Shown piece by piece: positions 9,701 through 50,884 of a DNA stretch of 64,000 bases. The notes beneath the pieces were generated by a model that saw only the letters and a program-made list of their open reading frames with translations, made no database searches and had not been told where the DNA came from. The position numbers were made by a program, and so were the translations under genes. How positions within the stretch are numbered: position 1 is the stretch's first letter; each line of letters begins with the position of its first letter. Origin of the DNA: Sipunculus nudus (Eukaryota; Annelida; Sipuncula; Golfingiida; Sipunculidae). The stretch covers positions 76,755,642 to 76,819,641 of the forward strand of contig CM049306.1 in assembly GCA_026874595.1 (NCBI GenBank), in the 5' to 3' direction.

Positions 9701-12700
9701 TTTTCCATTATTCTGAGCTGTACTTTGGAGTGCCATAGCTCAAAGGATATGGGTAACAGAGACCTAATTTCAGGTGTCCAAGGAGACTTATCATGGGTCT
9801 CCCTGTGTGTCAACAATGAAGATTCTAGGTCCAGTCCTTACGATTTGTACCCTGTTGACAGATAACTACATCCTGAAAGGTCTCGAAAATAGAGAAAAAA
9901 AAATTGTGAAAATTTGAAAAAATACAGGTGGCACCACCAGTCTGCAGGTACTGATGAAACACCTCTTGATCAATATGTATGCCAAAAATCATGACCATCA
10001 GTGTTGTAGTTATTGAGATGTTGCAGTTTGTTTTTATCAAATTTTCCATTATTCTGGGGGGTTATTGGGAGCCCCCATAGCTCAAAGGATATGGGTAACA
10101 GAGACCTTATTTCAGGTTTCCATGCAGACTTTTTATGGACCTCTCAGTGTGTCAAGAATGAAGATTCTAGGTCAAGTCTTTATGATTTGTGCCCTGTTAA
10201 CAGCTGTTCACATTTTTAAATTCGTAAAAAATCGAAAAATTCAGGTGGCGCCACCAGTCTGCAGGAAGTGATGGAACATCTCATGATCAATACGTATGCC
10301 AAAAATCATAACCATCAGTCAAGTAGTTAATGAGATATTGAAGTTTTTGTATGAAATTTTTGACTTTTCTGGGGGGTACTTTGGGGCCCCATAGCTCAAA
10401 GGATATGGGTAACAGAGATCTAATTTATGGTTTCCACAGAGACTTTTAATAGGTTTCTCAGTGTGTCAAGAATGAAGATTCTAGGTCCAGCGGTTACGAT
10501 TTGTGCCACGTTAACAGATGACAGCATCTTTAAACGTCTCAAAAATAGAGGAAAAAATTGTAAAAAAATCGAAAAATACAGGTGGCGCCACCAGTCTGCA
10601 GGAACTTATGGAACATCTCATGATCAATATGTATGCCAAAAATCATGACCATCAGTGTTGTAGTTATTGAGATATTAAAGTTTTTGTATGAAAATTTTGA
10701 CTTTTCTGGGGGGTACTTTGGGGCCCCATAGCTCGAAGGATATGGGTAACAGAGACCTAATTTATGGTTTCCAAGGAGATTTTTCATGGACCTCTCAGTG
10801 TATCAAGAATTAAGATTCTAGGTCTAGGCTTTACGATTTGTGCCTTGTTAACAGATGTTCACATTTTTAAAGGTCTCAAAAATAGAGAAAAAAATTTGTA
10901 AAAAATCGAAAAATACAGGTGGCGCCACCAGTCTGCAGGAAGTGATGGAACATCTCATGATCAATATGTATGCCAAAAATTATGACCATCAGTCAAGTAG
11001 TTAATGAGATGTTGAAGTTTTTGTATGAAATTTTTGACTTTTCTGGGGGGTACTTTGGGGCCCCATAGCTCGAAGGATATGGGTAACAGAGACCTAATTT
11101 CTGGTTTCCAAGGAGATTTTTCATGGACCTCTCAGAATCCTAAGTTACAAGGTTCTAGGTTCAGCGGTTACGATTTGTGCCTGGTTAACAGACAGATAGA
11201 CGGACAGACGGCACGACGGACGACGAACAAAGAGTGATCGCTATAGCTCAGATGACTTTCAGTCAGCTGAGCTAAAAATCTATCAAAGATCAATATGCAG
11301 CCATATTTCAAGGCATTCCATTAAGCCATAATGGTAAATGAATCTAAAAATACATGTCTACTCAAAAGGGACTAATTTAATTTAACTACATGATGTTTGT
11401 TGCAGTTAAAGACTACCTGATTAGCCTATCTTTTTAGATGCTTACTCGCATATATAGTACATGTCTTACAGTAAAACATTATTCCGATGTATGATCAATG
11501 CAAAATACATGACTGGTGATCTAATACTGGTAAAAATGATGACTTTTAATCACAATCATTAAACCAACCATCTAACTTTCCATTAATTAGTGACCTAAGT
11601 CATATGTCATCATTAAACCAAATTTCAAGGTTAAAAACACAGCCATAAATGAAAACATCTTTAGAATCAATTTAAACTGAAATTTAATAGACAAGTAGTA
11701 GTGAAATATCTGTTATTCACATATCACATCATCAAGAGTGATAGGGATAAAATTTTGTTAAGTGAGTCATTTTACCATTTTAAGATTCAGCATTATTAAA
11801 ATGTTTAATTTGTGAGCTAAAACTCTGACATGACTTCTATCAGTCATTAACATAAACTTCATTGCAAATTTATTTATAGACTAGTTCTACTAATAGTAGG
11901 CTTACATAGTTCACACTTTTACGTTATGACCCAAATATATATATCTATCGACCAAGAATATAACTCACAGAAAGGGTCATTGGTACTGGCTGCCATAGAA
12001 GCTGCTGTCTCACACATTTGCTCACTGTGGATACAGAAGCTGTTCAAATACGGCTGCAGCCATAGTTCAAGATCACCAGGGGACCATGATACCTGCAAAT
12101 AAAACATTATAACATTCAGTATTCTATATATACTGTTCCCCTATCTGCACAAATTGTTTACTTATTGCCTGTGGGATACTTTTTCATGAGACCATTATGG
12201 GGCCCTCATTTTTATTGATAAAAAATTTTAGCCCAGAATCAGCTTTAAAATGGATGCGATTGTGATATCCTGCAATGTCTACAGTTGATAACAAATCATA
12301 ACACAGGCTTCTGGAAAATATATTATGGTTTAACATAACCATTTCCAGAGATGACATCAAGTAGGCATCAAGACAGATCAAATCATGCAACAAAAGATCT
12401 GAAGAGGACATCTCTAAAGAAAATGTGACAACAAATGAACACAGATGAAAACACAACCTCCTACATTTATAAAACTGTTACAGACAAGAACAAAACATGA
12501 CATAATTAAAATAATAGTTAATGGCTTCTGTGGACCAGGGGTAGAGCACAGGACTTAAAAGTCGGTGGATCTTGACCCCCACCCAGTGACTCTTGGTGAG
12601 CACTCTGCAGGCTTAATGAGAAAGACGTGCCCAATGGCTGTGTTTCACTCATAAACAAGTGCGCTTTTTGGGGTTTCCTCGGTTGAATGACCCAGCTATG

Positions 12701-15700
12701 GAAAGGATTTAACAGCTAGGGGCCTGCAGGTGCAGTAGTCACCTGGCCTGGTTAACATCAGGATATAACATGAGAGGAAGCATGTAATACTGCTCAGCTG
12801 TCATATAGTCCAAAACCAGAATGGAATTCTGCAGATGTACATATACGACATTTAGCAAGCATAAAAAATGGAGGCAGTTACTTCCAACAAAAAATTAAAA
12901 AAAAAAGTTAACATTCCATTAGGATTGGGATGATACCTGTTTTTATATCATTATAATGATATATAATTTATCACTCAGTCAGTTTGTTGGGGAATCATTT
13001 AAATCAAAACAACACCCATATATTTTTTGTTTTATGATTACTTCTATATTTAATTCATTCTATTAATTAAAATAATTGTTATCCTTGAAAATAAATGATA
13101 TTCAGTACACAGAAAAAGCCCAGTGAGGCCATAATTTTTAGGTAATAATCCTGAGAAGGACATTTATATGGACGAAATTGCACATCAATGCTTGCAGCTG
13201 TGAGATATCATGATAATCTCCAAGATTGGTAAAGTCCCAACCCTAAACCCTACTTTGTTAGCCTGAGTAAAAAATGCTGATGAAGTTTGAAAAATTTATC
13301 TCCAAATAACAGTATGCTAGAATTGTCAGATGAACATTCAGACAGGATGTAACATGCAAAAACTACTATAGTCAATTTCACCACCTGCTGTTTAGTGGTG
13401 GGCCTATCATCGAGTTTTTTCGAAAGTTGGTCGGTTTGCTGCCACTTTCAAGCGCATGATTTTTTAAGGCAACTATCGATTACATCATACTCATGATTGT
13501 TTTTACCAGAATGTCTTTAAAATATAGGCAAAAATTACTCTTCCATTTTTTACAACATTCCACGCTTCATATAATGAGTCTGTGTTCCCAAATAACCTCC
13601 GTATTTAACGGAGTATGACACGGTAGATGACAGAATGAGGGACTTATTTAACCTCTGTGAACTGGCAGGGAGCTGCAGAATTAGGGGAGTTTTCTAACGA
13701 GATGTTCATTGGAAAATATTAGCGGTATTGCATTAAAATGCTCCATAACTCTCCAGGTCTATGCCAATTTTGCAAGATTCTCTTAGAAATAACCTCCTCA
13801 ACTGATGTCAGGTGCCGCTGCCGCATGAGTAATTATTTATTTTTTAGCTTTCAATTACTTATTTTTAATTTTTACCTAAAATTATATGGCCCTGTAATTT
13901 TTCTGGCAGGCCTGTGAAACCACTACGCATATTGGCAATCATCATAATTGTTATAAAATGAGAGTCCTTGCTGGTGAAGTTAAAATGACGTGCAGGAGTA
14001 TTCATGAGGGCCAGCAAGTAGATGTCCTGGACTGTGGTTTAATTCTTGATTACCATAATTAATAAAAATGAAATTTGGATAGCATTTCTTAGTGATAAAA
14101 GGAAAATATAAACAAATGACGCATGGGTCATGACGCTCAGCTGACTGGGAAGAGATTCGCAAAAGGAAATTTTATCATATGAATGGTAGTATATACCCAT
14201 TCAACTGAAGCATCAAACAGATTAACCAACAGGCCAAGATTGTGTCTGTATTTATATATCTCAAAAATAGAGAAAAAATGCGTAAAAAATACAAGTGGCT
14301 CCACCATTCTGCAGAAACTAATAAAAAGACTTAATGGTCAATATGCATGCAATGAATCATGGTGATCTCTGCATTAGTTGTTCAGATACTTCAGCTTTTG
14401 TATCAAAATGTTCATTATTCTGAGGGATACTTCGGAGTCCTATAGCCTGAAGGATATGGGAAACAGAGACCTAATTTCAGGTTTCCACAGACACTTTCCA
14501 TGGGCCTCCTTGCATGACAAGAATGAAGATTCTAGGTCCAGTTGTTATGATTTGTACCCTGTTGACAGATAACCACATCTTTAAAGGTCTCAAAAATAGA
14601 GGAAAAAATTCATAAAAATTTGAAAAAATAGAGGTGGTGCACCCAGCCTGCAGAACCTGATGGAACACCTCATGATCAATATGTATGCCAAAATTCATGA
14701 CCATCAGTGTTGTAGTTATTGAGATACTGCAGTTTTTGTATCAAATTTTTCATTATTCTTAGGGGTATTTTGGAGCCATACAGCTTAAAGGATATGGGTA
14801 ACAGAGACCTAATTTCAGTTTTTCATAAAGACTTTTCATGGGTCTCCCTGTGTGTCCAGAATGAAGATTCTAGGTCCAGTCTATACGATTTGTGCCCTGT
14901 TAACAGATGTTCATATCTAAATTAAAGGTTGCAAAAGTAGAGAAAAAAATTCGTAAAAAAACCTGAACAAATATACATGGTGCCATCAGTCAGCAGAAAC
15001 TGATGAAACATTCCATGATCAATATCCATGCAAACAATTATGGTGATCTCTGCATTATTTGTTCAGATACTTCAGCTTTTGTATCAAATTTTCCATTATT
15101 CCGAGTTGTACTTTGGAGCGCCATTGCTCAAAGGATATGGGTAACAGAGACCTAATTTCAGGTTTCCATGGAGACTTATCATGGGTCTCCCTGTGTGTCA
15201 AGAATGAAGATTCTAGGTCCAGTCTTTACGATTTGTGCCCTGTTAACAGATGTTCACATTTTTAAAGGTCTAAAAATAGAGAAAACAATTGGTAAAATAT
15301 CGAAAAATACAGGTGGCGCCACCAGTCTGCAGAAACTGAGGAAACATCTCCTGATCAATATGTATGCCAAAAATCATGACCATCAGTGATGTAGTTAATG
15401 AGATTTTGAAGTTTTTTTATGAAATTTTTTACAATTCTTGGGGTACTTTGGGGCCCCATAGCTCGAAGGATTTGGGTAACGGAGACCTAATTTCTGGTTT
15501 CCATCAAGACTTTTCATAGGTCTCTCACTGTGTGAAGAATGAAGATTGTAGATCCAGTCTTTATGATTTGTGCCCTGTTAACAGATGTTCACATTTTTAA
15601 AGGTCTAAACAACGGACCTATGGGTCACTGTGCTCAGCTGACATTAACCTTGAAGGTATAAATCTAAAATAATATCAAATGGAGATAAAGTGGAAGAGGT

Positions 15701-18700
15701 AATAAAGGCCATGGTTGGTTTATATGATTGGTTTGTATTGATGAGCAAGAAATTGTTGCAAATAATATTTTGTGACCTGACCATGTGTTTCCTAATGTTG
15801 AAACTGAAGCATGTGAGCAGTTTGTGAACAAATGATCTGTACAATTACCATGATCATTAGTTGGCTTTTCGATTAACTGTTGACATTTCAGTAGTTTACA
15901 CATTTGTTCAATCGAATCTTTTTTTTGTATAATATATATTATTAAATATATTTTTTTTTATGAAATGTATACAGTTGAAATATAACTAATTAACAACATA
16001 AAACATGGCAAACAAAGCCTGATCTCAAATTCTGCTGATGCAGGAAAATAATGAACAAATGTTTGTAATAAATCCTCATTTTTTTATGACATCAATTTTT
16101 TTTAAATTTAAGTTTATATTTCTATACATTTTCAATATAACATATATATCTGAATATAAAAGTTGATTCATAATTCTCAATTGCATCATCATAAATCTCA
16201 ATCTTGTCAGATAACATCACATCATGCATACAAATGTTTATTTATTTTTTACCACAAAAATATATCTTTTAAATCTGCAAAACAATAAATATCTAAAAAA
16301 AAATACTTGATTTAGATTTCACAATTTTTAATTGTGTCTTTATTTATCCATAATGTGCTTCATATTTTATCATAATTTAAGCATACTGATGGGTTCCATT
16401 ATGATTGGTAAAATCATTTAAAAGAAAAATGATTTCTTTAAAAATGCTACATTACACAACATTGCATCTTCTGGATTACACCTTGAATTACTTTTTCAAG
16501 GAAAGTTTTTGCATATCAGAGTGGAAACAGCATTACAATTAAGGAGATACAGTGAAAACAATAACAATACTGCATAACACTTGGTGGGTTGGGTTTGGGG
16601 GGGGGGTGTCATTGGGGTGGTGATATGAGAATAACTGTACACCTGTCACAGCAGGGAATCTCCCCCAGTGACTGTAACAAATCAGAAACCCTGGCATAGC
16701 TGACTTCCAGTGCCTGGAGTGGGACTCTGCATCTGTAATCTGTAAACAAAGCAAATGACTACAATAGAGCCTCAAGAAAAAAATCAATAACTAGCTTAAT
16801 TTTCAAGCTTTTACTTCCAAATTTCAGATTTAAACAAATTTAATATTTATGTTTACATGCTATGAAAATTAAATCAATGGTACTTACAGGAAAAAAACGT
16901 GCCATGGTCAAAGTTGGGCAAATTTAAGGTACTGATTTTATTTTTATACTAATTACTTAAAAAATTTACAAAATTCAGATCTAATTTTGGGTAAAAAATT
17001 GAATCTTAATTAAACATAGTTATATACTTGGGAAAACAGACTCTAGTTTCAAAATTTTTCATGTTAAGTGAGTAAATATTTTTCCTGATTTTTTACAAAG
17101 TCCATTATGTTTGGGCCCATAACTTAACAAATTTATACTTAACAGACTTAATTTCTGGCATGTACATAGGAACTATATAGAAGAATATTTATGGTAAATA
17201 TGAGGAAAAACAGATGAGTGGTTTTGATATTAGGCAGTCCTGAAGTGTGAAAATAGGATTTTAATAAAAAATTGAGGTTTTTCCTTAATTTCTCAAAGGA
17301 ACGAAGTCACAAAGACCCAGTTTTTGGCTTGGTAGGAGATCTTGGGGACATCTAACATTATGCTGAATTTTGGATTCCTAGGTCTTACGGTTTCAAAACG
17401 TGCCACATCTACGGACGGACGGACGGACGGACGGACTGACGGATGGACGGACGGACAGACGGACGGACGACGGACAATGGACCACGACTATAGCTCAGAT
17501 GACTTATAGTCAGCTGAGCTAAAAATAGAGAAAAAAATTCGTAAAAAATAAAAAAATACAGGTGGTGCCACCAGTCTGCAGGAACTGATGGAACATCTCA
17601 TGATCAATATGTATGCCAAAAATCATGACTATCAGTGATGTAGTTAACGAGATATTGAAGTTTTTGTATGAAATGTTTGACTATTCTGGGGGGGTACTTT
17701 GGGGCCCCAAAGCTTGAAGGATATGGGTAACAGAGGTCTAATTCCAGGTTTCCAAGGAGATTTTTCAAGATTGTAAGTCCAGCGGTTACGATTTGTGCCA
17801 GGTTAACGGACAGACAGATGGACAGACGGACGACGGACAAAGAGTGACTGAAAGTGAGCTGAGCTTAAAAAAGCAAAAACTTCTTTTCGTCAAGTAGAAT
17901 TACTTAGACAAGCTGGCTGGGTTAGGAGAGTACAGTTTCACAGATAATTGCACATTTCTTTAATAATGTCTGAACCGATTAATAATCGATCATCCATCGG
18001 TTTGCCCAAACCGATGATCAATTACGAAAAAGGAACTGACTCCCAATACTACTGCTGTCCACCTGTTTCTGTAGATAATTTTTTAAAAGTTTATATTTTT
18101 CAATTAATTCCCAGCAAACTACATATGGAACTGACAACCTAATATTGCAATTATGATTTTTACAATAAATCCCTAGTTTATGTTTCACAAATTTTTAGTC
18201 TCTTCAAAATGATCTGGCACATATGATGTGTTTCTGCATGAGTCGCCATCTTTGTTTTAGCTGGTTATATTTTTTAGAGTGTTTTCATAACATCATCCAA
18301 TCAGCAGCTGTCAATTGAGGCTGTTTCTGCATGTGACCAATGACCTTGACTGCCATAAGTGGGTATGATATGTTGTAAAATGACTAATTTCTCATATAAT
18401 CAAATAATTCTTTTTCTTAAATAAGATGTATGGTAAGTATTTAAAAGCCTATTCTCTGCATTATATTTCATCTTACGTTTTCTATATAATCTAGTAAACC
18501 AAGTATCTGAAATATTGGTCGACATGATGCATCCTACCCATTAATATGGAACCTGGTGTGTCAATCTGATTAGCTGCATTGTTCAGAGATGTTGCCGTTT
18601 TGAACTGCTATTTCGTCATTTTCAAGTGTTTTAATATGCTGTTAGATACATTGCCGGCCATGTAAGACACAACACCATTTGTTGACCATGTTTTATTCAC

Positions 18701-21700: not shown

Positions 21701-24700
21701 TTACTTCTTAACTATACGTAACCATTCAGTGTTAAAATATTGAAAATCTGACTGACAACATCTTTCATAAGTCAATTACAATGCATAATTTATTGGGAAA
21801 TTAGATCAGATCACTATTATAATCTCACCTAGGCAGATTTTAAACTCGCCCAAGTGATATCAGGCAGATTTTAAACTCGCCTGGATGACATCAGACAGAT
21901 TTTAAACTCGCCTAGGCGAGATTAAAATCCTGGCCTGCTCCATGATGGATTTTAATCTCGCCTAGGCGAGATTGCGATTGTGATCTCGTCTAGGCGAGTT
22001 TAAAATCTGTCTAGCCGAGATCACAATTGCAATCTCGCCTAGGCGAGATCACAATCGCAATCTCGTCTAGGCGAATTTAAAATCCGCCTGGATTTCAATC
22101 TCGTCTCTGACACATGTCAGAGACGAGATTGAAATCCAGGCGGATATGTGAAAATATGATTTCTAGATTCATAGAGTAATAGATCATTTATGCATGTGAA
22201 CATGCTTTGAATTATATTGATAAAAAAGAAATGAGCTATGTTCCTTTTGTCTTTTTAAAATACTACATTACTAATATTACTAATACCAGTTTCCCTTCAA
22301 ATTAATATTGACAACAAAATTATTATGTAAATAATCAGCAGCAGCCCACATCATATATCATTTGAATATGCCATATACAATACCAATGTAAGTTTCTTAT
22401 TACATAGTTTATAAATAAAAATATAAATTAAAAAAATTAATGTTAATTATTACATAAATATTATAATATTCTGTTAATAATATTAAATATATATTACTTC
22501 TTAACTATACGTAACCATTCAGTGTTAAAATATTGAAAATCTGACTGACAACATCTTTCATAAGTCAATTACAATGCATAATTTATTGGGAAATTAGATC
22601 AGATCACTATTATAATCTCACCTAGGCAGATTTTAAACTCGCCCAAGTGATATCAGGCAGATTTTAAACTCGCCTGGATGACATCAGACAGATTTTAAAC
22701 TCGCCTAGGCGAGATTAAAATCCTGGCCTGCTCCATGATGGATTTTAATCTCGCCTAGGCGAGATTGCGATTGTGATCTCGTCTAGGCGAGTTTAAAATC
22801 TGTCTAGCCGAGATCACAATTGCAATCTCGCCTAGGCGAGATCACAATCGCAATCTGGTCTAGGCGAATTTAAAATCCGCCTGGATTTCAATCTCGTCTC
22901 TGACACATACATATACAGACATAAACTCATTGTTCTTTTCATGTATTTCTGATCTCTATATCACAAAAAAAAGATTTTGTATTTTAAATATATAATAATT
23001 CTCTTCATCACAAACACCAGTTGAAACTTGACATTTTCTTTGAAATATTTTTTCCAAAATCACTTTAAGGAAGGAAGTTGGTACTTTTACCTTTTATTTT
23101 GAATGTAAAAGTAAAGTTTTAGAAAAGGTCATAGACTTATATCACAGCACCTGCAGAAAAAAAATAAAATGTCTAAATTGTTAGTCTAGACACTTAACTT
23201 AAACAAAAAACCATCTAAAACCAGATCATATATTTGCAATTACTCAATTATCATTGTTTTCTTCATTAACAGGAGACCACGCTTGAAGATGAACCCAGTA
23301 GTGCAAGATCACATCCCTAATGGTCAGAACTTTTCAATTCATCAACAGGAACCAATGGCATTCCTTGTTGGTCATATGATCAAAGTGGATTCATTGAGCA
23401 TTCAGTCAGTACAGAAACTTCACCCAAAAGCAATGCGGATTGCTATGGCGACCATACTGACAATCCTGACAATTTTAGGCATTGTGGGAAATACCATTGT
23501 GATTTTGTTGATTTACACAAGGCGACGACTCCATACACCATGCAATCTGCTTATTGCCAACATAAGTGTTGTGGGATTATTGTCGAACATCATAATCCTT
23601 CCAATGTTCATTGCGAACATTATCGGAGGCAAGGAAGTGTTCCCGGTTGTTGTTTGCAGAATATTTGCGTACTGGAATTATGCTCTAATTCTAGCCTTAC
23701 TTGCCAATTCAACTGTGATAGCATTGCACCGTTTTGTAATTTTGAAACTTCCACGGATTGGACTGATTAGCAAAAGGCACATGTTCATGATTGTAGTGTT
23801 GTGGGTCTGCCCGCTGGCAGCAGGACTCCTGGGTATTCCATTCTTTGGATACAACCCACAGCAGCTAAACTGCATTTTCGTTCCGGCGTCCCGCCACTCC
23901 TGGTACCTCGGTGCCCTCCTTGCAGCTCCGGCAGCATTGACCTTGGGGGTGATCTTTGTGTGTTATATACTAATCTGCTGCAAAGTCAAGGCAAGTCGTA
24001 ACAAACTGACTCCACAGTCAACAAGAACTGAGATATTCACCATTTCAAACCCCGTCCTTGTAGAAGAAGTTGAGAAGAACAATCTGCCAACAGGTTCTTC
24101 TAACAATACTCCTGTGCTCCGAAGAAGACTAGAAGCTTGGACTCAGAAAAATGTTAGAGAGGTGAAGGTTACCATCCACCTAACGCTTATATTCACTTTA
24201 ATGTGTGCTTTCTGGACACCCCTAATGACTCTGTACTTCATCCATATGAACATTGCTGTGTCTCCCAATCTTTGGTTGGTATTTTCTGTCATAGCTCGTT
24301 CTTACACTTCGATATTCTGGTTTCTTCATTTGTTTCTTAATCACAGCATTAAAACAGCACTACGACAGTCCTGGCAATCCTTTAGGGCTCACAAAGTTGG
24401 ACATTTCTACAGATGAAACTTCAAAATGCATTAATTAGTGCTAACCAAGACTGAAGTTGGCACTGTCATTGGGACCATAAACTACTGAAGTCTTGAATAT
24501 TCTATGCAGAAAAAATATTGCAGCAATCTGTTGTACCATATAATATTGTATAGATGATAATCTAAACATATCTATTCATGTGGTTGTTATATATATTTGG
24601 AAAATGGACCATCAGATAGTATTGGAAGAACCTGGTAAAGAACTTAAATCAATATAAATTTGTAATTTTTTAATTGCATGGTGCAAAATCTGATAATTCC

Positions 24701-27700: not shown

Positions 27701-30700
27701 ATATGTTGTAAAATGTCGACTGATTTCTCATATTTTCAGAAAATTCTGTTACTCAAATATGGCATAAGGTAGGAATCTAGTTACCTAGTTGAAAATTAGG
27801 TTCTGTAATCCTCTCCTCTACACTATAATTGTTTCCCTTGAAATGTACCTAATAAAAATTTTCATAGCAAAAAACAGGTGGACATGAGGGGATGAAACGG
27901 ACTATAGACATAATACTGATTGAAACAATGAGATGAAAATACACACATAAAGCAACTTTGTTAACAGTTAAACTCTTGGTATTTTATGTGTATATTCAGC
28001 TATTAGAGTGAACCTCACCTATTTCTTAAAGGAAATATCATACGTACATGGGACTAAACTTTAGCAATAAATTGACTAATTTAAGGAAAAATGCATGATT
28101 TGCAAATGAAGCCAACCGACTCAACTCAGCTAAACAGATGTTCAAACATCTCACAGTACTGCTTATTAGAGTTTTTCTTGCCTCAGAGTGGTTCATTTTG
28201 CAGATTAGCCATACTAGTATTCAGTTATCGAAATGCATACCAAATTTCAAGTCAATCAGTACAAGATTTATTGAAAACCTATGCTTTTGTAAACATAAAG
28301 TATTAATGCATAGTTTATGAGATAAAAAATTGTGAAACTACCAGTTTTGTTCAATTAATGAACAACAAGTATACTAAGTTTAAGGACAACACATAAATTC
28401 ACTGTTCAGAGACTGACACAGTTTAGAAAAATTAAAAGTGATTAAAAATGTGTAAAACATGAAAAAAATTGGATGGCACAAGAAAATGACACTGTTGCCA
28501 ATGATGAAACAGTTTAAAGCCTTGCTGAGCCCAGTTTACTTGCAGCTGTAGACACAAAATGATGAACAGATGGACATAAAGACAAATATATTTTAGACTT
28601 CTAACCAACCAGACAAACATGTCTCTCCAACATGATGTAAAAAGTCATCCAAATGATTTGCAAGAACTTTCAGAGGTGCTTTTACAACAGCTTGTCTGTC
28701 ATTTCACCAAGCTTCATTTGTTTTGTTGTACATCCAGATTGTGTTTTAAATTCTCATGGTAAAACTAGAAACCTGGATTCTAAGGAAATTGCAAGCCTCC
28801 AGCCTGTGGGAGTCCCTATTGTGAGATGCTACCAAAACTTTGCATTCACTTTTTTGCCCATATTCCCAGGATCATTTATGCATAAGTGACTGAACATTTG
28901 TGAATATTCCTTGATGACATTCCTGAATCCAGATCATGTGCTCGATTAACACCAAACTGTAATTAATTCACTGGCCCATTCCCGATATGCCTTGAAAATT
29001 TCATGAGATTCTGTTCATGATTGCGGGAGTTTTGTTGTAATTAAACACACACACAAACAGGGATAAACACATACCCCTCTGGCAGAATCAATAAACAAGA
29101 GGAGATTGGCCACGTGTACTATCATACTAACTGTTAAGCTATAGAGTTCCCCTGTCAATCATACACTGACCACTAATCAGGAGTGCTGAGTGTCATGAGA
29201 GTTCTCATAGCAATATCAACATAAGTTGATTAAATCTATTACAATGGATGCTGATAATCCAAGGGCTCAATAAATAATGGACACAGGGATATATCAGTCG
29301 TAAGTTCGCCAGTGAGAACCAAACTACCGGTACCTACATTGTCAGTGTGTGCTAGTGAATTCTGTACTCATTCTGTGGGTTGAAGGCTTGGATATGACCA
29401 AGTCCCTTAAATCTTATTCTATCCACCCACATATTGCAAGTTACAGAAACTATCACTTTAACATAACAGACAAGTGTCAGTCTAAAAATAACCATTAAGC
29501 ACGACAAAAAATGAAGTTAAAAATGTAGTGGGCACCACTAGTGTCAGGCATAGCGAATTTCAATTAGTCAGTGCAGGAGTTAGTGAAAATTTACACTTTT
29601 GTATTAAGTTTGTACTTAAAATGGACTAAAAGTAATGATATTTCATAAGATAGGTCTCTTTGGCCAATTCTTGTGAATACATTGCAGGATTACAGGTAAA
29701 CATAATGTTCCTCTAATGAATGGGCATAATATCAATTTGATTGTCTTACACAAATGATGCTTAGCAGTACTCTGATAAGACTGCCACCAGTTTTCAGCAA
29801 CTAATAAACATATATATATATATATAAATTATTATTACATATATACTTTTCTTATTTGATCAAATGTTTTCAGTAACAATATCACTAACATCCCCAGGTG
29901 CAAGGACTTGGTGGTGGTGGTGATGTGTGTGTGTGTGTGGGGGGGGGGTTACAACATCTGTGTATATATACATATTCATACAGGATATTCACTTAATTCA
30001 ACAGTGCTTACAGGATAAAAAAGTTCGTTCCAAGTTACTGAATATTTAAAAATGTAAAGACAGATTGGTAGACATACAAAACTGATCACTTTATCTCCCA
30101 TTCTGCTGAGGCAGAAAAATAATGAACAAATGTTCAAATTAGATCCACATTTTTTATTAAATTGTTTTTTTTTTTAATTTATATTTCCTTTACATTCCCA
30201 ATATAACATATATATCTGAATATAAAAGTTATAAATATCTTGAAATAATACTTGATTCAGAATTCACAAATTTAAATTGTGCCTTTATTTATACATAATT
30301 TGGCTCATATATTATCAATTTTTGTTTATTGATGGGTTTAATTATATTCTAATTTGAAAAAATTATTTAAAAGAAATTGATTTCTTTAAAATTGCTACAT
30401 TACCACAACACTGCATCTTCTGTATTACCCCTTGAAATACTATTTCAAGAAAGGTTTTGTATATTGGAGTGGAAACAGCATTGCAATTAAGGAAATACAA
30501 TGCAAACAATAACAGTTACTGCATAACACTTGGTGTGGATGATATGAGAATCTCCCCCTGTGACATGTTACAAATCAGATACAGTGGCATAACTGACCTC
30601 CAGTGACCAGAAGTAGCCTGCCTGCAGCTGGACAATGCAGGTGAACAATAGAGCCTAAAAAAATTCAATAACTAGCCTTATGATTTAGCTTTTGTTTTAT

Positions 30701-33700
30701 AATTTTTAGATTTAAACAGATTAAATCCTTTTATTTAAATGCTGTGAAAATTGAATCAACAGTACTTACAGGAAAAAAAAGTACCATGGTCAAATTTGGG
30801 CAATATTAAAGTTACTGCATTTTATTTTTATGCTTATAACTTAAACAAGGCCTACAGCCTAATGCCAGCCTGTGCAAACTTTGGGAGTATGAATTGAGGT
30901 AATTTTAAAAATTTAATATTGATCCTCTTATGTCCTGCATAACTACCTAAGTCATTATGATTTCAGCAAAATCGATGTTTCGAACCTGCAAGTTTTGGAC
31001 TAGGACATTTTAAATCTAGGATGCATCAGTCAGGATATTTTGGATATGTTCTTTTTTGCCAGGGTGGATTATTTGGACAGATGAAGGGACAATTTGACAG
31101 TATGGTTTCAGAGTAGAACATTTTTTAATGTTTTTTAGCTTCTTCCCTATAAAATCTAAGGAAATGCAGTTAGCCAAAAAATAAGCAAAATCCGATAGAA
31201 TTTTTAGATGACAAATTTTTTGCAAAAAATTTTGTGATGCTAGCTGCTGCCCTTTATGAGATAGCTATGATGGACGACGGACAACGGACGATGCCACACC
31301 ATTGCATAAGCTCACAGATTCGCTAAAAATGCAAACGCAGGTTTTATCAAACAGTTGAAAGATATAGTTCCAATAGTTTTAATCTAGGCATTCTGCATCT
31401 AGACAATGTGTCTAGACATCTAGACACCTTGTCTAGACATCAGACAGAGCCAGGTCAGTCACCTTGGTGAAGTCTGGACCCCACCTGGTTGTACTGAGTG
31501 ACCTCTTGACTTGGCTGCTGAAACTCAGCATGTTGTCAAAACTGTTTCCAAACACAGAAAGCCTTTTTCAATTGGCTACTCTGCTTTTTTAAAGCTGCAT
31601 TTACCCAATCTATTCTTAAAAAACTGGCAGAACCCTACCATAGAATAATTCTTGTAAAGTTTAAACCAATCAGCTTAACAGTTTTATCATAAAACAGTGT
31701 ATAAGCTAGATTCTAAAATTACACTTTAACTTGTAAAAAGACAGTTCAATGTAGGTGGCCCCACCAATACCTCAATTTTAGATATGACATATATGACAAA
31801 CTTTGGCATAAAATTTGGTGATGATGGCTCCAGCCGTTTCTTAGATTTTAATTTTAGTGTGCTTTTTTGGACAGATAACTAAGTTCAACCTCTTGTTACT
31901 CTGCTTAAATCACCAAACTGGAACCATTCAAACAAAATTGAGAGAGATGGTTCCAGGAAACATTTCGGTGAAATATTGGACAATTTGGCCGGACAGTTTT
32001 GTAGAAGAAGATTTTATAGCTTTTTCACTATAAAACCAAAATAAATGCAGATACCCAATAATAAGCTCTATGGCATCAAGTTTCACATGTGACTAATTCT
32101 TACATGTAATATGTAGCTGCTAGCTCTGATGGTTTCTGACTTACAGCCATGGATGGCAGACAGCCAGCCCTGGACGTTGGACGATGGACTAGACGGCAGA
32201 CAGATGACGCCATGCCATCACATAAGCTCACAGGTTCCCTAAATAAATAAACAAAATTAAGATCTTATTTTGGGTATACAATTGAATCTTGATTAAACAA
32301 ATTTATACACCTGAAATTTAAGTCTCTAACTTAAAATATTATTATGTAAAGTGAGTAAATATCTTTCCTGATTTTTTACAAAGTGCATTATGTTTGAGCC
32401 CATAACTCCAAGAAATTACACAGTATTAATCTCTCAGGCTGGCATATATATATAAAATACATAGGACAATATTAATGGTAAATATTTAGAAAAACAGAGT
32501 AGTTTTCATATTAGGGAATCTGGAAGTGTTATAATAGGTTTTTAATGGAAAATCAAAGTTTTTCCTTAATTTCTGAAATTAGGAACAATGTCTTAGTGAC
32601 CAAGTTTCTGGTTTGGTAGGAGATCTTGGGGACATCTCACATTGTGCTGAATTTTGGATTTGCAGATCTAACTGTTTCAAATTGTGATGGACAGACTGAC
32701 AGATGATGGACAGTGGACCATAACTAACAGTCAGCTGAGCTAAAAAAAAGGAGAAAAACTTGTATGATATCTGTTATGTGTCAGTCTGAAAAACTGAATA
32801 CAATGTGCATAAAAATTTCAGATGACACAGGTGGCTTAACTATCAGATATTTGAGCATTTGTAGGAAATTTTACTCAAAATGGAAGAACTGCAGTGGCAT
32901 TTAACAACATTTATCAATTATTTTAAGCATTTTAAACATTTCTAAAAAATTAAGAACATCAATTTGTTCAAATTTTGAATTCTGACAGGGATAGATGTAC
33001 ATATGAGGTACACTATTTCAATTTCTGATCCAATGGTAATTTTTTTCAACAGCCTTAAACATAGTTTAGGCACATAGCTTACAGAATATAGGTCATGCAC
33101 TTTGATCTCACTTTGGGTTTTATGAGTACCTGTTGTTCTGAGTTGACCAGCTAAAATCTTCGCCCAACTAGAGGATGATTTGACAGCTGGATGGAAGTAG
33201 GATGGAGAAAGACCAATCACTACAGCTCAGCAAAGATGAAAATCAGCTGAGTTAAAAATTACATTTTTCTTTTGGTGGAGTAACTGCCTCCATTTTTTTT
33301 AATGCTAACTTAACTACATATATGTACATCTGCAGAATTCCATCCTGGATTCAGACTACATGACAAGGCAGTATAACAAGTCCTTTTCATTTTATATTCT
33401 GGCACCAACCAGGCCCAGTGACTACTGTACCTGTGGGCTCTGGGTGTATAATCATCCCCACTGCTGGATCATACCACCGACTAACCCCCGAAAAGCGCAC
33501 TCATTTGAGAGTGAAACACGGCTGTTGGGCACAGCCTTCCCATTAATTAAGCCTGCAGAGCACTTACCCTGTGTGGGGACCAACTGTGAAAAATCTCACC
33601 GCCTCGGTTGCGATTCAAACTCATAATCTCACGGTTTTGAGTCCTATGCTCTACCCCTGGGCCTCAGAAGCCCATTTAAAAATTGCTCTCTTCAAAACAA

Positions 33701-34075
33701 GTGGAACAAAGTGACATGCTAAACATCAAGACACCACTTGGCTGACATTTATACATTCATTCTACACTTATAGATGTCATTTTGTGTGTAAATGTCCTGG
33801 TTTCCAGATAACGTAATGCTTATGTGCTCTCTTTGACACATAGACCACAGCTTATTTTGGACCTGCAGCATCACTTGATCTTGGCAAGATGAAGAGGCAG
33901 GGCATTTTACAAGGGATGTATTTACCTGAGCCTCCAGGGTCGCCTTGAGTAGCCGCTCCAGAGGTTCTGTTGTCTCCTTGAATGTCTCCACAAATTGATG
34001 AAGGAGGCCATTGGCCCCACAAAAAACTGGGTCATCCATCCTGGGGCTGGTTTTTGGTTTACCAAACAGAATATT
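604..34075 (-). CDS. Vinculin/alpha-catenin-superfamily-like protein, multi-exon gene (partial)
   Basis: Eight exons are visible on the minus strand: 34075-33926, 12092-11969, 7078-6869, 6256-6062, 5418-4916, 4383-4261, 1706-1596 and 784-604. Each has AG/GT borders. Splice phases match across every junction (0-0, 1-1, 1-1, 1-1, 0-0, 0-0), which is strong evidence for one transcript. The roughly 530 residues are almost wholly amphipathic helix with one charged linker. The stretch HSEQMCETAASMAAS, followed by KALRDEW and LVEPMAFIKVSE, resembles by eye the helical repeats of vinculin and alpha-catenin, which link cell adhesions to actin. That family assignment rests on remembered patterns and is tentative; alpha-catulin is the main alternative. 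The gene continues left of base 604 (donor, phase 1) and its first exon was not found upstream of 34075. A 22-kb intron contains a GPCR gene on the other strand and many transposons. Confidence 0.65.
1596..1706 (-). CDS. Vinculin-like gene exon
   Basis: 111 nt, 37 codons, phase 0 to 0, with acceptor CTCCTCAG and donor GAG|GTATT. It encodes a helix-forming stretch starting VSQAEHQIDQYIHKW and joins in frame with both neighbouring exons. Confidence 0.75.
2282..4010 (-). mobile_element. Family A: Helentron/pearl-like element with about 180-bp tandem repeats
   Basis: In minus orientation the 5' end is a hairpin (ATGCCCCCGCCAC ... GTGGCTGGGGCAT). The 3' side has an inverted copy of that terminal sequence (GCGGGGGCAT), then the hairpin GTGTCG-TTC-CGACAC and a short tail. 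The core holds nine repeats with a period near 180 bp, marked by TCAAAAGTAGGTCAAC at about 2379, 2559, 2739, 2899, 3079, 3257, 3438, 3616 and 3797. Next to the 5' end is a GGAC/GGAA-rich stretch. No coding capacity. Confidence 0.7.
4107..4152. repeat. Direct 23-bp duplication
   Basis: ACAAGTACCATCTATTGAAC occurs twice in direct tandem. Short and non-coding, in the intron 5' of the exon at 4261. Confidence 0.8.
4261..4383 (-). CDS. Vinculin-like gene exon
   Basis: 123 nt, 41 codons, phase 0 to 0, acceptor ATTTCAG and donor CAG|GTAGGT. It encodes GMASQLSTKSAQLIELARK and continues with EACDEWVRQ. The SxKxAQLIELARK pattern resembles the helices that open vinculin/catenin bundle repeats. Confidence 0.8.
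4545..4800 (-). pseudogene. Non-LTR retrotransposon 3' tail (broken)
   Basis: The minus strand encodes the typical end of a LINE reverse-transcriptase ORF: ALGEKAFISAAPRL, a stop where Trp is expected, then NNVPCNLRQAGTLETFKHL. An ATT/AAT-rich tail follows at about 4545-4590. Severely 5' truncated and inactive. Confidence 0.65.
4916..5418 (-). CDS. Vinculin-like gene exon (largest, with charged linker)
   Basis: 503 nt, phase 1 to 0, acceptor TTTTTCAG and donor AAA|GTGTTA. About 168 residues in three parts: an N-terminal helix, a central Lys/Asp/Val-rich linker (from about TTPVKVKV to NVVPKKM) that looks disordered, and a C-terminal helical part ending near ARTNQAVEGATVIG. The position of the linker before the last bundle recalls the flexible hinge before the vinculin tail, but no proline-rich motif is present. 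Confidence 0.85.
6062..6256 (-). CDS. Vinculin-like gene exon
   Basis: 195 nt, phase 1 to 1, acceptor TTTTGCAG and donor G|GTCAGT. Encodes 65 residues including HTRAICGLAGRLVKMALRQM, a strongly amphipathic helix, and ends YISNLES. Confidence 0.8.
6869..7078 (-). CDS. Vinculin-like gene exon
   Basis: 210 nt, phase 1 to 1, acceptor AATCACAG and donor G|GTAAAA. Encodes 70 residues including INHQMELVQELETTIGT and KALRDEWTLNLKVMLDTLDD. The spacing of the DEW segment and the following acidic helix is like the vinculin/alpha-catenin repeat in which a conserved W sits in a similar helix. Confidence 0.8.
7381..11278 (-). mobile_element. Family C element, copy C1, with about 340-bp tandem repeats
   Basis: In minus orientation the 5' end is the hairpin AGCTCAGCTGACT ... 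AGTCATCTGAGCT, followed by a GGAC-rich stretch. The 3' side has GTCAGCTGAGC in inverted orientation, then the palindrome TGACCCATGGGTCA and a short tail. The core is a series of about 340-bp units carrying CCACCAGTCTGCAG and ATGGGTAACAGAGACC. It is interrupted by B1 at 7563-8894. Confidence 0.7.
7563..8894 (-). mobile_element. Family B element, copy B1, nested in a family C element
   Basis: It starts with CTAGAATACGGGTAG and ends GTTTTGGCGGGTAC, like copies B2 and B3. It is diverged from them. It interrupts family C sequence; the uninterrupted counterpart is at about 14230-14330. The core has about 300-bp repeats containing GGTGGCGCCACC. Confidence 0.7.
11279..11968. other. Intronic AT-rich DNA
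   Basis: Between family C copy C1 and the exon at 11969. No repeats or ORFs of note. Confidence 0.5.
11969..12092 (-). CDS. Vinculin-like gene exon
   Basis: 124 nt, phase 0 to 1, acceptor TTTGCAG and donor T|GTGAGT. It encodes VSWSPGDLELWLQPYLNSF followed by HSEQMCETAASMAAS. The last residue is split with the exon at 7078 to give Cys, which supports the junction. Confidence 0.8.
12521..12895 (+). mobile_element. tRNA-derived SINE, copy S1
   Basis: The head TGGACCAGGGGTAGAGC is an A-box-like match. The body (CTCTGCAGGCTTAATGAG, GGGCCTGCAGGTGCAGTAG) and tail (CTGCAGATGTACATATACG, then A-rich) are shared with S2 and S3. The B box is degraded. Confidence 0.7.
12896..14110. other. Intronic DNA, mostly unassigned
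   Basis: Contains the family E stub near 13370-13400. The segment 13400-13960 is somewhat richer in GC but has no recognisable gene. Confidence 0.45.
16643..16739 (-). pseudogene. Exon-like segment inside a mobile element (captured or extra exon)
   Basis: Bounded by acceptor GTTTACAG (a second AG lies at 16733) and donor ACAG|GTGTAC. One frame is open and reads VPLQALEVSYARVSDLLQSL, a helix like those of the surrounding gene. However, its splice phase (2 in, 2 out if the inner AG is used) does not fit between the phase-0 ends of the exons at 33926 and 12092. The whole segment also lies within an element (15607-17525) inserted into another transposon. A decayed, frame-broken relative sits at about 30545-30640. 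It is either a captured exon or a cassette exon with partners I did not find. Confidence 0.4.
17411..17470. repeat. (GGAC)n microsatellite inside D1
   Basis: A run of GGAC units with a few changes (TGAC, GGAT, AGAC). The same type of run, in shorter form, lies next to one end of families A, C, G, H and M. Confidence 0.85.
18044..18912. mobile_element. Family E relative, copy E2 (longer, ends eroded)
   Basis: Matches E3 from TGCTGTCCACCTGTTT through GCCATAAGTGGGT and again at GCAAAAAACAGGTGGACATG. It has extra sequence in the middle and lacks intact CTATAG ends. A stub of the same end lies at about 13370-13400. Confidence 0.55.
19340..19770. other. GC-richer segment with an open minus-strand frame
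   Basis: The minus frame 19642-19352 is open for about 96 codons (for example SYQRLETVIWTCGWSGCY) but starts without an ATG in frame. Base composition is clearly less AT-rich than the flanks. No family recognised; it may be an old exon or repeat remnant. Confidence 0.3.
19846..20853 (-). mobile_element. Family G element with AGGTCA-rich repeats
   Basis: In minus orientation the 5' end is a hairpin (AGCCCTCAGCC ... GGCTGATGGGCT). The 3' end has the inverse GGCTGAGGGCT, hairpin TCAGC-TTCT-GCTGA and tail TATTCTAG, the same last bases as family B. The core has about 300-bp repeats with GTAGGTCAAGGTCACC and GAACTTGACCGAGATTTTG. Confidence 0.65.
21323..22111. mobile_element. 789-bp inverted-repeat element, first of a tandem pair
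   Basis: Begins GTCAGAGACGAGATTG and ends CAATCTCGTCTCTGAC; terminal repeats of about 30 bp. The right third holds many CTCGCCTAGGCGAG palindromes, including the 20-bp AATCTCGCCTAGGCGAGATT at 21954-21973. Confidence 0.75.
22116..22904. mobile_element. 789-bp inverted-repeat element, second of a tandem pair
   Basis: Same length as and nearly identical to 21323-22111, separated from it by ACAT. The pair is flanked by CATACATAT at 21314-21322 and 22906-22914, which looks like a single 9-bp target duplication. Confidence 0.75.
23289..24416 (+). CDS. Class A (rhodopsin-like) orphan GPCR, single coding exon
   Basis: 375 codons from ATG at 23289 to TGA. Just upstream is a splice acceptor (TTCATTAACAG, ending near 23271), so a 5' UTR exon is likely spliced on. 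The N-terminus has a sequon (NFS, residue 14). TM1 spans about 50-77 with the class A Asn in GIVGNTIV (N68), TM2 86-112, TM3 about 120-150, TM4 165-187, TM5 204-232, TM6 293-320 and TM7 327-350. C123 and C195 form the expected TM3-ECL2 disulfide. The third intracellular loop is long (about 233-291). Family microswitches deviate: TM2 Asp is Gly96, DRY is HRF (147-149), CWxP is FWTP (308-311), and NPxxY aligns with FWFLH (343-347). It should be a plasma-membrane receptor; the ligand cannot be read from sequence. The gene lies in the opposite orientation inside a large intron of the vinculin-like gene. Confidence 0.9.
   Translation: MNPVVQDHIPNGQNFSIHQQEPMAFLVGHMIKVDSLSIQSVQKLHPKAMRIAMATILTILTILGIVGNTIVILLIYTRRRLHTPCNLLIANISVVGLLSNIIILPMFIANIIGGKEVFPVVVCRIFAYWNYALILALLANSTVIALHRFVILKLPRIGLISKRHMFMIVVLWVCPLAAGLLGIPFFGYNPQQLNCIFVPASRHSWYLGALLAAPAALTLGVIFVCYILICCKVKASRNKLTPQSTRTEIFTISNPVLVEEVEKNNLPTGSSNNTPVLRRRLEAWTQKNVREVKVTIHLTLIFTLMCAFWTPLMTLYFIHMNIAVSPNLWLVFSVIARSYTSIFWFLHLFLNHSIKTALRQSWQSFRAHKVGHFYR
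24417..27362. other. DNA 3' of the GPCR gene, no recognised gene
   Basis: The start is the probable GPCR 3' UTR. Small ORFs at 24727 and 26095 lack family or splice support. The segment 26160-26330 resembles a repeat with AAGACCAC motifs. Confidence 0.4.
27363..27907. mobile_element. Family E inverted-repeat element, copy E3
   Basis: Terminal repeats CTATAGTCCGTTTCA and TGAAACGGACTATAG flank 545 bp, with inner CCACCTGTTTTTTG and CAAAAAACAGGTGG also inverted. No coding capacity. Confidence 0.7.
27908..30059. other. Intronic/intergenic DNA with microsatellites
   Basis: It has a (GT)n/G run at about 29920-29950 and a (TA)n at 29810-29826. The segment 28130-29100 reads like an old repeat (ACACACACAAACAGGGATAA near its end). 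No gene seen. Confidence 0.4.
30846..32250. mobile_element. Repeat M (two related units) inserted in D2
   Basis: Two units end alike: CATAAGCTCACAGATTCGCT at about 31301 and CATAAGCTCACAGGTTCCCT at about 32221, each after a GGAC-rich stretch. D2 sequence stops at ATAACTTAAA and resumes at ACAAAATTAAGATCT, which bounds the insertion. Confidence 0.5.
31395..31445. repeat. Cluster of TCTAGACA inverted motifs in repeat M
   Basis: Four TCTAGA sites in 45 bp (CATCTAGACAATGTGTCTAG, then CATCTAGACACCTTGTCTAG), giving overlapping palindromes. Confidence 0.6.
33290..33675 (-). mobile_element. tRNA-derived SINE, copy S2
   Basis: Reverse-strand copy. The head reads TGGGCTTCTGAGGCCCAGGG, with a B-box-like GAGTTTGAATCG. 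It lies just 3' of the vinculin-like exon at 33926-34075, in the intron. Confidence 0.7.
33926..34075 (-). CDS. Vinculin-like gene, most 5' exon recognised
   Basis: 150 nt, 50 codons, acceptor TATTTTCAG and donor CAG|GTAAAT. Encodes NILFGKPKTSPRMDDPVF and then FVETFKETTEPLERLLKATL, an amphipathic helix. It ends in phase 0, which matches the phase-0 start of the exon at 12092, so a direct join over a 22-kb intron is possible. Assignment to the same gene is inference from strand, phase and helix character; it could be the last visible exon of another minus-strand gene. The D3 mobile element begins only about 40 bp outside the acceptor. Confidence 0.6.
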
Positions 34076-34117: not shown

Positions 34118-36180
34118 AACAAGGGACCCATGGCTCAGCTAAAGGTTGAAGTTTTTGCAAAAGCAAAATATGCAAAACAGGGGCGGATCCAGGATTTAGG
34201 AAAAGGGGGGGTCCAACCCAGGAGGACTAATGAAAATCCTAAAAAAAAGGTCATCACGTCTGGAAAAGGGGGGGGGTCCAGGCCACAAAATTATGTCTAA
34301 AACCCCTTAAAAAAGGTTGCTTTGGGTGAAATAGGGGGGGGTCCGGACCCCTGGACCCCCCCTGGATCCGCTTCTGCAAAATATTCTATTGTAATTTTTT
34401 TATATATATAAGCATATGAGAAGCTAGGAGGAAAGGGGCCCTCCTACTTGGTTGTAGTAAAGTTTTGAATATATGATTGCAAAACTAATCCTCTGACAAG
34501 ACTGTCATGAAGAAAAACAGTAAAAGTTTTGAGATACTGTGATGCATATGAAAAATTTACAGATTGACAGGCAACTGGACAGAATGGGCTGATACCTTTA
34601 TTTCACTATCAAGGGAATAATGCTTTTAAGTTAAAGCCTATTTTTTATCATATCCACTTTTTCCAATAATAGTTTTTAACAGATTCATTTATTTTTATTT
34701 AAAAGTAAAAAAAAATCTGAAAATATAAGTTAAAATATCAGAGTTCTTAGTTGCAATCATTATTAATCTAGAGTGTACAAAGCTCATATTAGTTCATATT
34801 AAGCATAAACTTATTCTTTATCATTTTTAAATCACAAATGTTTACACTGAATTTAAAAGAAAATGATACAACAACATGGCATCTTCAAGATTATTCCTTG
34901 AATCACTATTAAAAAGTTTTGTACATTGGAGTTTTCAGTACATGCTAAATTTTATTCACTGAAAAATAAGATTCAGTAAATTTGGCAAAATAAAAACATC
35001 TTTTCAAACAAAGTGTACACACTGTTGGTTGAATGAGGGACAAACAACATCATTGTGCTAATAACTATCTTAGCTATAATTTATTATTGGAATTAATAGT
35101 AAATTTCAAACCTGGTGAAGTTTTTACTCTTTTGAAATAAGAAACTCCTTATCTAATGAACATCAACACTTGCACAGCAATACACAATATTGTTGACACA
35201 AATAAATGTGCACTTTAATCATTCTAACCCTTGTGGTACAATACAAAATCTTAAATGTAGCATAGCCTAGAATAAGAATGTATCAAATGCAGAAAATGAT
35301 TACATTCATCTAGTTTATGCACCATCTGGGGGGGGGGGGAGTGCAGGGCAGAGGGGAAGCCTGCTAGTGGTGGCCAAGCGAAGCCAAGGCAAGCCGCCTG
35401 GAGTGGGTGTTACATAACACAAGTGAAGGCTGTACTACAAGGTGGGCTTTATGTAAACAACACTTGGCATAGTGTATGAAAACTTAAATAAAAGCTACTC
35501 TTTTCAATCAATTCCTTTGAAATTTCAGAATTTGAAAGATTTAATCCTTATGTATATATGCTGTGAAAATTAAATCTACAGTGCTTACAGGAAATAAACA
35601 TGCCGTTGCCAAATTTGAACAAAATTTAAGGAATTAATTTTTTTTTACGCTAATAACTTAAAAAAATTGCAAAATTCAGATCTAATTTTGGGTAAACAAT
35701 TGAATCTTGATTAAATAAAGTTATATCCCTGAACTAAAGTCTCAAGCTTCAGCAATTTCATGTTAAGTGAGTAAATATTTTTCCTGATTTTTTTTTAAAA
35801 TTGCATTATTTTTGGGTCAATAACTTCAAAACAGTACGCAAAATTGACCTAATTAAAGGTATGTTAATAGAAAATTATGGAAAATTATGCATTCTAAATA
35901 TGATCAAAAACAGATCAGTGGTTTTGATATAAGGCAGCCTTAAAGTGTAAAAATGGCTTTTTTTTATGGAAAATTGAGGTTTTTTCTCAATATCTTGAAG
36001 GAACGAAGTTGTAGTGACCCAATTTTCGGTATGTTAGGAGCTTTAATTGTATGCAAAATTTTGGATTTGTAGGTCAAACGGTTTTAGAACGTGCCCTGTT
36101 AACGAACGGCCAGCAGGACGGACGAAGGACAAAGGACCAAAGCTATAGCTCAGATGACTTATAGTCAGCTGAGCTAAAAA
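34118..36180 (-). mobile_element. Family D-related element D3
   Basis: Starts AACAAGGGACCCATGGCTCA and ends TATAGTCAGCTGAGCTAAAA, matching C/D termini. The right half (35520-36180) aligns with D1, including TGCTTACAGGAAATAAACATG. The left part contains a hAT-like element. No open exon counterpart is visible. Confidence 0.6.
34178..34376. mobile_element. Short hAT-like inverted-repeat element
   Basis: Terminal inverted repeats CAGGGGCGGATCCAGG and CCTGGATCCGCTTCTG, G-rich interior, about 199 bp, flanked by CAAAA on both sides. The CAGGG-type terminus suggests a hAT relative. Confidence 0.6.
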
Positions 36181-48440: not shown

Positions 48441-50884
48441 AACAAGTGACTCATGGGTCATGACGCTCAGCTGCCAAACATGACCTGTGTCATCATGGAC
48501 TGAGATTCACAACTTCCAGTCAAATTTTGAAGAACCAATTTGCCAATTTGTTGAAAATTTTCTATGACAACAGAAATATATATCACCTATGTCTGGTTAA
48601 AACACAGTGAATTGATGGTCTGAGGAAAATGCATGATTGTTAAGCTATCAGGAACTATTCCAACAGCTTGCTTGAAACCTGTCAGTCTCAAAAGGAACAC
48701 CACAAAGGGCAAATATAAGATCAAAATATATAGCAAAAATCAAGAAAATACATGCAAGAATTATTGAGAAACAGGTGCTTCTGTATGAATTTTTATTCAA
48801 TACAAGCCAACTGTACTGTACTTTTATAAATGATGGTAATATTTATTCAGAAATATTTGACCCAATCCTTTACAAGATTACATAAATATATACATCCAAC
48901 TGCATTCACTTTAACTGTTCTTGAGATAATATGATCAAAAGGAATTAAAAGATGGTTGCCTGGTGGCCATATTGGATTTCTGACAAGTCTGAAATCAGAC
49001 AACAAACATTCTTTAAATCGGACCAAACATTAAAGAAAAATTACTGAAACTGCCCTGAAGAAAGAATTTCTAAGGTGGCTAACTGGCAGACATAATGGAT
49101 TTCTGACAAGTATGACATTTGATATCCCACATTCTCCAATAAGAGACCAAACTTGGGGCAAATTATCCAGTAATAAATGCCCAAAATAATTCAAAAGGCA
49201 TGTCCAGGCCCTCATATCAGATTTATAGATATGCAATTGTAAAAAGTGTAAGTCCAATATTTTTTATTATCACTCTGCTTTTCAATGAGGGCCGGCAGGG
49301 TAGGTAAACTGCCAAACCTGAAAGAAAAGAAATGCAGAAAGCATGACTAAGAGTCTTGAAATAAAACAAAAAGCCATCCTAAATCAAGGTACACATCCAC
49401 ATATTATGAGAACAAACACTTGCTTTTATATGTGGTGATATATATTAAAATATTCAGATATCTAGGAAACTAAGTTTATTGCTAGGATTCCATAAAATAA
49501 ACTGCAAAATGTTCCCATCATCTTATAAATCAGTAGCTAAACCTTAATACTATACTCTCATAGTCTTAATGCCTGGCTGAAGCATTCTGACAACAGTGTT
49601 TTTGTTATGAAGTAACAAGTACTTATCACTGAGCCTTATCACTTAATAGGCTGATACAAAAGGGAGTCATATGTCACCAGTGTCACTCACAATTACAGCC
49701 ACACAGGGATATGTACCAGCTGGAGTGGGATGGTTATATATACAAGAAAAATAGAGATGGTCTATAAAATTAAGTAATTGTGAACATTCCTGACCTTTGA
49801 CCTTGGCCTTTTGCCCATATATCAACTGGATTCTTTCTAAATGATGGGTAACTACTGACCACTTAAATCTGGTGTAATTACTTGGCAACCAATGGGTGAA
49901 TAACTTTGACCTGCAACCTTTAACCTGCTGACCAGCTGACCCCAAAATCAATAAGTTATTTATTCAAGCAAAAAGACCCATAAATATGAAGTTTAAGTCA
50001 AACTGAGTGATGCATAGATGTGGCATATGTGAAAGACTGAAGGTTTGGGTTGAACAGTTACACTTGAAATATGCTCACAAGCATTTAGAACAATTAAATA
50101 TTGTGACCTTGACCTTTGACTTTTTGACCTCAACATCAATAGGCTTCTTCCCTTATTGGTAGGTAAGCCATATATGACAGATGGAAGGTACAGATTAAAA
50201 AGTTTGCCTGATAATGACTCCACGCAAGAAGTGGGTGCTGTGAACTTGACCTTTGACCTCAAAATCAACAGGTCTTTTCCCCTGTTGGCAGAGAAGCGAT
50301 ATCAGTGCTGGAAGGTTTGGAGTGAAAAGTCTAGCTTGAAATGTGTCCACAACCTTTTCAAAGAAGTGGATCCTGTGACCCTGACCTTTGACCTTGTGAC
50401 CTCAAAATCTATAGGATTCTTCTCCAACTTAGTAGGTGAGCTATATGTGAAAGATCAAAGAATTGGGATGAAAGGGTTGGCTTAAAATGCATCCACAGGC
50501 TTTTCAAAAAAAGAGGCTCCTGTGACCTTGACCTTTGACCTTTTGACCAAAAAAAAATTATGGTTCTTCACTTGTTGGTAGGTGAGCTATATGTGAAAGA
50601 TGGAAGGTTTGGGATGAAAATTTTGTCTCAAAGAGTTATTTCTGGGGGGTGCAAACACACCCCATAACTTCGAGAATATAGGTCACAGTGACCTAATTTC
50701 AGGTTTGCAAGGAGATCTTTTTATAACCTCTAAGACTGCATAGGGTTCATGGCCCTAGCCCCTACGGTTACGATTTGTGCCCTGCTAACGGCCGGCCGGA
50801 CGGCCGGACGGACAGACGGAAGGACGCCGGACAAAGACCCATCGCTATAGCCCAGCATGACTGAAAGTCAGCTGAGCTAAAAAT
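48441..50884 (-). mobile_element. Family H element: C-type ends, core of TGACCT repeats
   Basis: Starts AACAAGTGACTCATGGGTCA and ends GAAAGTCAGCTGAGCTAAAA, as in family C. The core contains degenerate repeats with TGACCTTGACCTTTGACC motifs and TAGGTGAGCTATATGTGAAA. A CCGG/GGAC-rich stretch lies near 50790-50830. Confidence 0.65.

Follow-up and report, generated by a model that had tools for sequence, protein, structure and literature searches.

Elements with the HINE layout are described in PMC4067079, and the same layout is described for Cg_HINE of the Pacific oyster in PMC7492417; according to the former, Helentrons with identical subterminal repeats of at least 11 bp form one family. A 64-kb stretch of Sipunculus nudus DNA (the window) contains an insert, D, for which an original prediction had proposed a Helentron-like element that picked up a host exon. 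As shown below, the Helentron-like part of this proposal agreed with the layout of D, that of a HINE (non-autonomous Helentron). The insert is very probably an abundant, non-coding HINE copy nested in another element, C2, and its exon-like stretch regular element sequence that acquired the reported frame by a one-base deletion. The features are listed in Table 1.

Table 1. Features of the D insertion, its C2 target and the surrounding gene (window coordinates)
Feature	Position	Strand	Remarks
D element, complete copy (HINE-type, non-autonomous)	15607..17525	- (usual HINE orientation)	39 full-length copies, same ends
HINE 5′ end: TTTTT, subterminal repeat AGCTCAGCTGAC and complementary repeat (hairpin)	17491..17525	-	
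GTCC-type microsatellite	17411..17475	-	gappiest bin among copies (6.28% gaps, bin 17407)
HINE 3′ end: subterminal repeat GTCAGCTGAGC, short palindrome GACCCATAGGTC, end TTGTTT	15607..15642	-	
Supposed exon, regular element sequence	16643..16739	-	97 nt here, 98 nt in 38/39 copies
C2 element, left of insertion: HINE-type end and repeats spaced 335–343 bp	14110..15606	-	
C2 element, continuation after insertion	17526..17875	-	
Older D relative	30093..30848	-	~73% identical over main piece; part of core, without donor stretch
Host exon A, vinculin family	33926..34069	-	phase 0 end at CAG/GTAAAT; 5′ limit approximate
Host exon B, vinculin family	11968..12092	-	in-frame join to exon A

The D family and its insertion into C2

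The genome (1.43 Gb, 153 contigs) was searched with the sequence 15607–17525. The 41 matches represented at least 39 full-length copies, that of the window included, and one further copy split in two; since the best 40 of 5160 first-look candidates (which are not a copy count) were scored, 39 is a lower bound. The other full-length copies were 95–97% identical to the window copy (95–100% when the latter itself is counted). The 39 copies started with AACAA (one copy being a base shorter) and ended in GCTAAAAA, or GCTAATAA in two of them, with a terminal A/T run that leaves the ends uncertain by a few bases, and their flanks differed. D inserted without target-site duplication: repeats of at least 4 nt flanked 6 of the 39 copies (15%), and when flanks were mismatched ~17% of the pairs had them. 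An 8-bp direct repeat at L024, AAGCAGTA, was the longest. HINEs insert in sequence rich in T (or in A on the other strand); insertion sites of D were A-rich at the window, L007 and L031 and had few flanking As at several others. D-like sequence, window copy included, made up 7.0% of the window.

A clean insertion between 15607 and 17525 had been predicted, and the C2 array (14110–17875) is indeed broken there. The monomer breaks off at 15606 and is seen to resume at 17526, because the sequences on either side (15270–15443 and 17519–17692) are 90% identical. An uninterrupted C2 monomer reads GGTCTAAAAATAGAG, while the filled site reads GGTCT, insert, TAGAG. The target was an A-rich run within a ~340-bp monomer, so the exact boundary of the insert is uncertain by a few bases. 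D thus sits within a monomer of another element, as had been proposed, and the suggested likeness of their ends also held: the left ends of D and C2 were 78% identical over 37 nt, and the 11-bp 3′ repeat GTCAGCTGAGC was common to both, the 5′ repeat of C2 being one base different. C2-like monomers also hosted the copies at L007, L031 and L033, at other A-rich points, which makes 4 of 39 with the window copy; another five had flank matches to C2 that were short only. As C2-like sequence covers 7.2% of the 64-kb window, a clear preference of D for C2 monomers was rejected. Repeats such as these two elements are prone to misassembly, but an artefact of assembly at the C2 interruption is exceedingly improbable: the same two ends were found in 39 assembled copies, and the four of these that lay within C2-like monomers each had an A-rich point of their own.

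The orientation of D was set by comparison with the Cg_HINE layout (PMC7492417). Its minus strand starts with TTTTTAGCTCAGCTGAC; the complementary repeat that makes up the hairpin comes next, and after it the GTCC-type microsatellite and the 3′ features of Table 1. The 5′ hairpin was stable on DNA folding (z = -6.41; 0 of 200 shuffles equally stable), and the short palindrome near the 3′ end, 9–20 nt from it, had no significant energy (z -0.61). The subterminal inverted repeat of the window copy, 11 bp, lies within the ~11–15 bp of HINEs; TTCAGCTGAGC was present instead in some copies. The longest stop-to-stop frame wholly within the insert was 97 aa, and the core peptides had no Pfam match, suggesting that D lacks coding capacity.

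The genome contained 143 matches to a Helitron-like Rep domain. All three Helentron loci that were scanned had OTU and Rep domains with long frames; the Helentron-type motif IEFQARGSPHAH was found in six of eight loci tried, and the Helitron-type motif RGLPHVH at one, L054. Two Helentron loci of the 143 Rep matches were followed outward for an autonomous element with D ends, and ~3 kb on each side, which may stop short of their true ends, gave no D match better than E 0.005. At L073 (~139–2117) a long Helentron-type open frame had next to it a tandem array repeating every ~330 bp. We infer that D has a Helentron partner acting in trans: D would have moved by rolling-circle replication, presumably with the Rep/helicase of a Helentron, and it landed in the A-rich run of a monomer of C2, another HINE, inside a vinculin-family gene.

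The exon-like segment in young copies and older relatives

An acceptor, a donor and an open frame had been reported in the core of D. On the minus strand, the 97-nt stretch 16739–16643 is indeed preceded by AG, followed by GT and open in two frames, both sites being on the strand of the host gene; but with splice-site matrices the acceptor scored well and the donor (CAG/GTGTAC) was weak, and the peptide frame VPLQALEVSYARVSDLLQSL occurred in the window copy alone among the 39 full-length copies. The segment itself was present in all 39, each time flanked by AG and GT and open in one frame or more. Among all the loci collected, the one-base deletion was confined to the window copy, and 50 loci, representing 47 distinct other copies, had the longer form. 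The VPLQA start of the window peptide is another frame, fused by the deletion (VPLQALEV...). LEVSYAR lay within a translation of 39/39 copies, with ITDAGSHSRS at its start in the copies printed. Two substitutions of the window copy were unique among the 39, yet one recurred in L050 and one in L044–L049. Core bins diverged by 0.81% and 1.60% among full-length copies (all bins, 0.30–6.75%), and their G+C content, 37–47% per 100-bp bin, was above that of most of D. When the genome was searched with the core only, all ten matches whose flanks were examined, from the best 40 of 131 candidates, lay in D sequence. The reported frame could not be traced across the copies. Since it came from a one-base deletion and the segment is regular in the transposon, the insert is an ordinary one.

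Segments with both sites this good and an open frame numbered one in D and were found in 1% of 300 shuffles; the two strands of the 64-kb window together had five, some of which may be real exons, and the segment in D had been chosen post hoc. It may thus be graded a mildly unusual coincidence. The look of an exon would come from an AG and a GT ~98 nt apart in the element, and the reported frame from the deletion. A core hairpin was rejected as not significant (z -0.64). No Rfam match reached its gathering score in the window, and the best weak match in 15500–17600 (mir-241, E 0.032; 23.9 bits, where the gathering score is 63) was taken as chance.

Older relatives were collected by a search with a 71% relative, in which the best 40 of 3381 candidates were scored; six loci from it and the copy at 30.1–30.85 kb of the window formed an aligned set of seven. 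The segment was also present in older relatives that are 71–85% identical. Its exact acceptor AG was absent in 7/7, with other AGs a few bases further on in several, and the donor GT was gone in two (the 30-kb copy being poorly aligned at the donor). Segment length varied from 97 to 106 nt, with frame-shifting indels in several relatives and a 5-nt insertion common to three; some open frame was left in six of seven. Identity to the consensus in the core bins was like that in many other bins. There was no sign of coding constraint on the core, though the young copies have an open frame in common. Other older D-like pieces in the window lay at 32239–32711, 34619–34864, 35479–36180, 50682–50883 and 11069–11278, and L078, L080 and L081 represented an older D subfamily (80–84%) with ~600 additional bases between consensus positions 390 and 403.

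With the segment fixed in 39/39 copies, frame-shifting indels in older relatives and, for the core peptides, neither a match in Pfam nor a significant one in PDB, a recent capture of a host exon as cargo is not supported; the want of any protein relative, here within Pfam and PDB, had been named in the original prediction, together with a lack of spliced reads, as counting against it. An ancient capture is possible, as AG, GT and an open frame occur in 39/39 copies: an ancestor of D would have taken up a host exon together with a little intron sequence, the subfamilies of today would have diverged later, and the captured copy would have decayed since. This is consistent with the G+C-richer block, the LEVSYAR-containing translation of all 39 copies, the open frames left in most older relatives and the gene-fragment capture by Helentrons reported in PMC4067079. 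It is nevertheless improbable, given the protein searches, the loss of the exact acceptor, length changes that are not multiples of three, and conservation that continues beyond the donor in the 82–85% relatives. Young copies differ by just 1–2%, so their common open frame says little. It is likewise improbable that such an ancestral capture was followed by D scattering splice-ready, frame-shifting 98-nt segments in many introns, some copies acting as truncating cassette exons. The preferred reading is that of regular, non-coding element sequence. Counting against it are the scarcity of such splice-like segments in shuffles, the AG, GT and open frame of all 39 copies, the G+C content of the core, the 8-bp flank repeat of L024 and the lack of a clear D match at the two Helentron loci followed.

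The vinculin-family host gene

When its exons were pieced together by eye from open frames, the gene matched Vinculin (E 7e-13). The join of exons A and B is in phase 0 and the joined frame stays open; vinculin also aligned weakly across the junction (E 0.16), with a gap of two residues close by. The VPLQA frame would require a frame of exon A that contains stops; being out of phase with the two exons, it would not yield the predicted peptide when joined to them at 33926 and 12092. Origin of the segment from its own host gene, which had been suggested, was therefore rejected on the phase 0 join, the misfit of this frame and the alignment across the junction. When the segment was placed between A and B, translation read ITDAESHSRHWKSAMPGFLICYSHWGRFPAVTGIMVPW and then a stop, six codons beyond the 32 whole codons of the segment. 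Occasional splicing of the stretch into the host gene as a frame-shifting, truncating exon is very improbable; its AG and GT are on the strand of the gene and the acceptor scores well, but the donor is weak and inclusion leads to that stop.

The interval between exons A and B also held a single open frame (23190–24416, +), on the other strand from the vinculin-family gene, for a seven-helix receptor of the rhodopsin type (Pfam 7tm_1, E 4.5e-22). A HINE-like end was seen near 34.13 kb, shortly upstream of exon A.

Comparison with HINE, DINE-1 and Cg_HINE elements

The insert contributes little beyond annotation, namely a large HINE-type family whose long interior is its own, and a clear case of one element nested in another. 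It illustrates that a one-base change in a single repeat copy can mimic a captured exon, a mimicry exposed by comparing copies.

Judged by PMC4067079, HINEs (e.g. HINE-Mo) and Drosophila DINE-1 resembled D in having partly palindromic subterminal inverted repeats, a 3′ palindrome and a microsatellite, without target-site duplication or coding capacity. Their sequence differed from that of D, and the 3′ subterminal repeat was 25–36 nt from the end in D as compared with ~38–60 nt in the mite element. Cg_HINE of Crassostrea gigas and the bivalve Pearl elements, as presented in PMC7492417, had like D a 5′ subterminal repeat with a complementary repeat, a left GTCC-type microsatellite, and a 3′ subterminal repeat with a palindrome, a settled partner being lacking in both. 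A central tandem-repeat array as in Cg_HINE and Pearl was not seen in the long interior of D, whereas C2 with its repeat array resembled their tandem-repeat layout, its monomers being ~340 bp as against an average of 140–180 bp in those elements.
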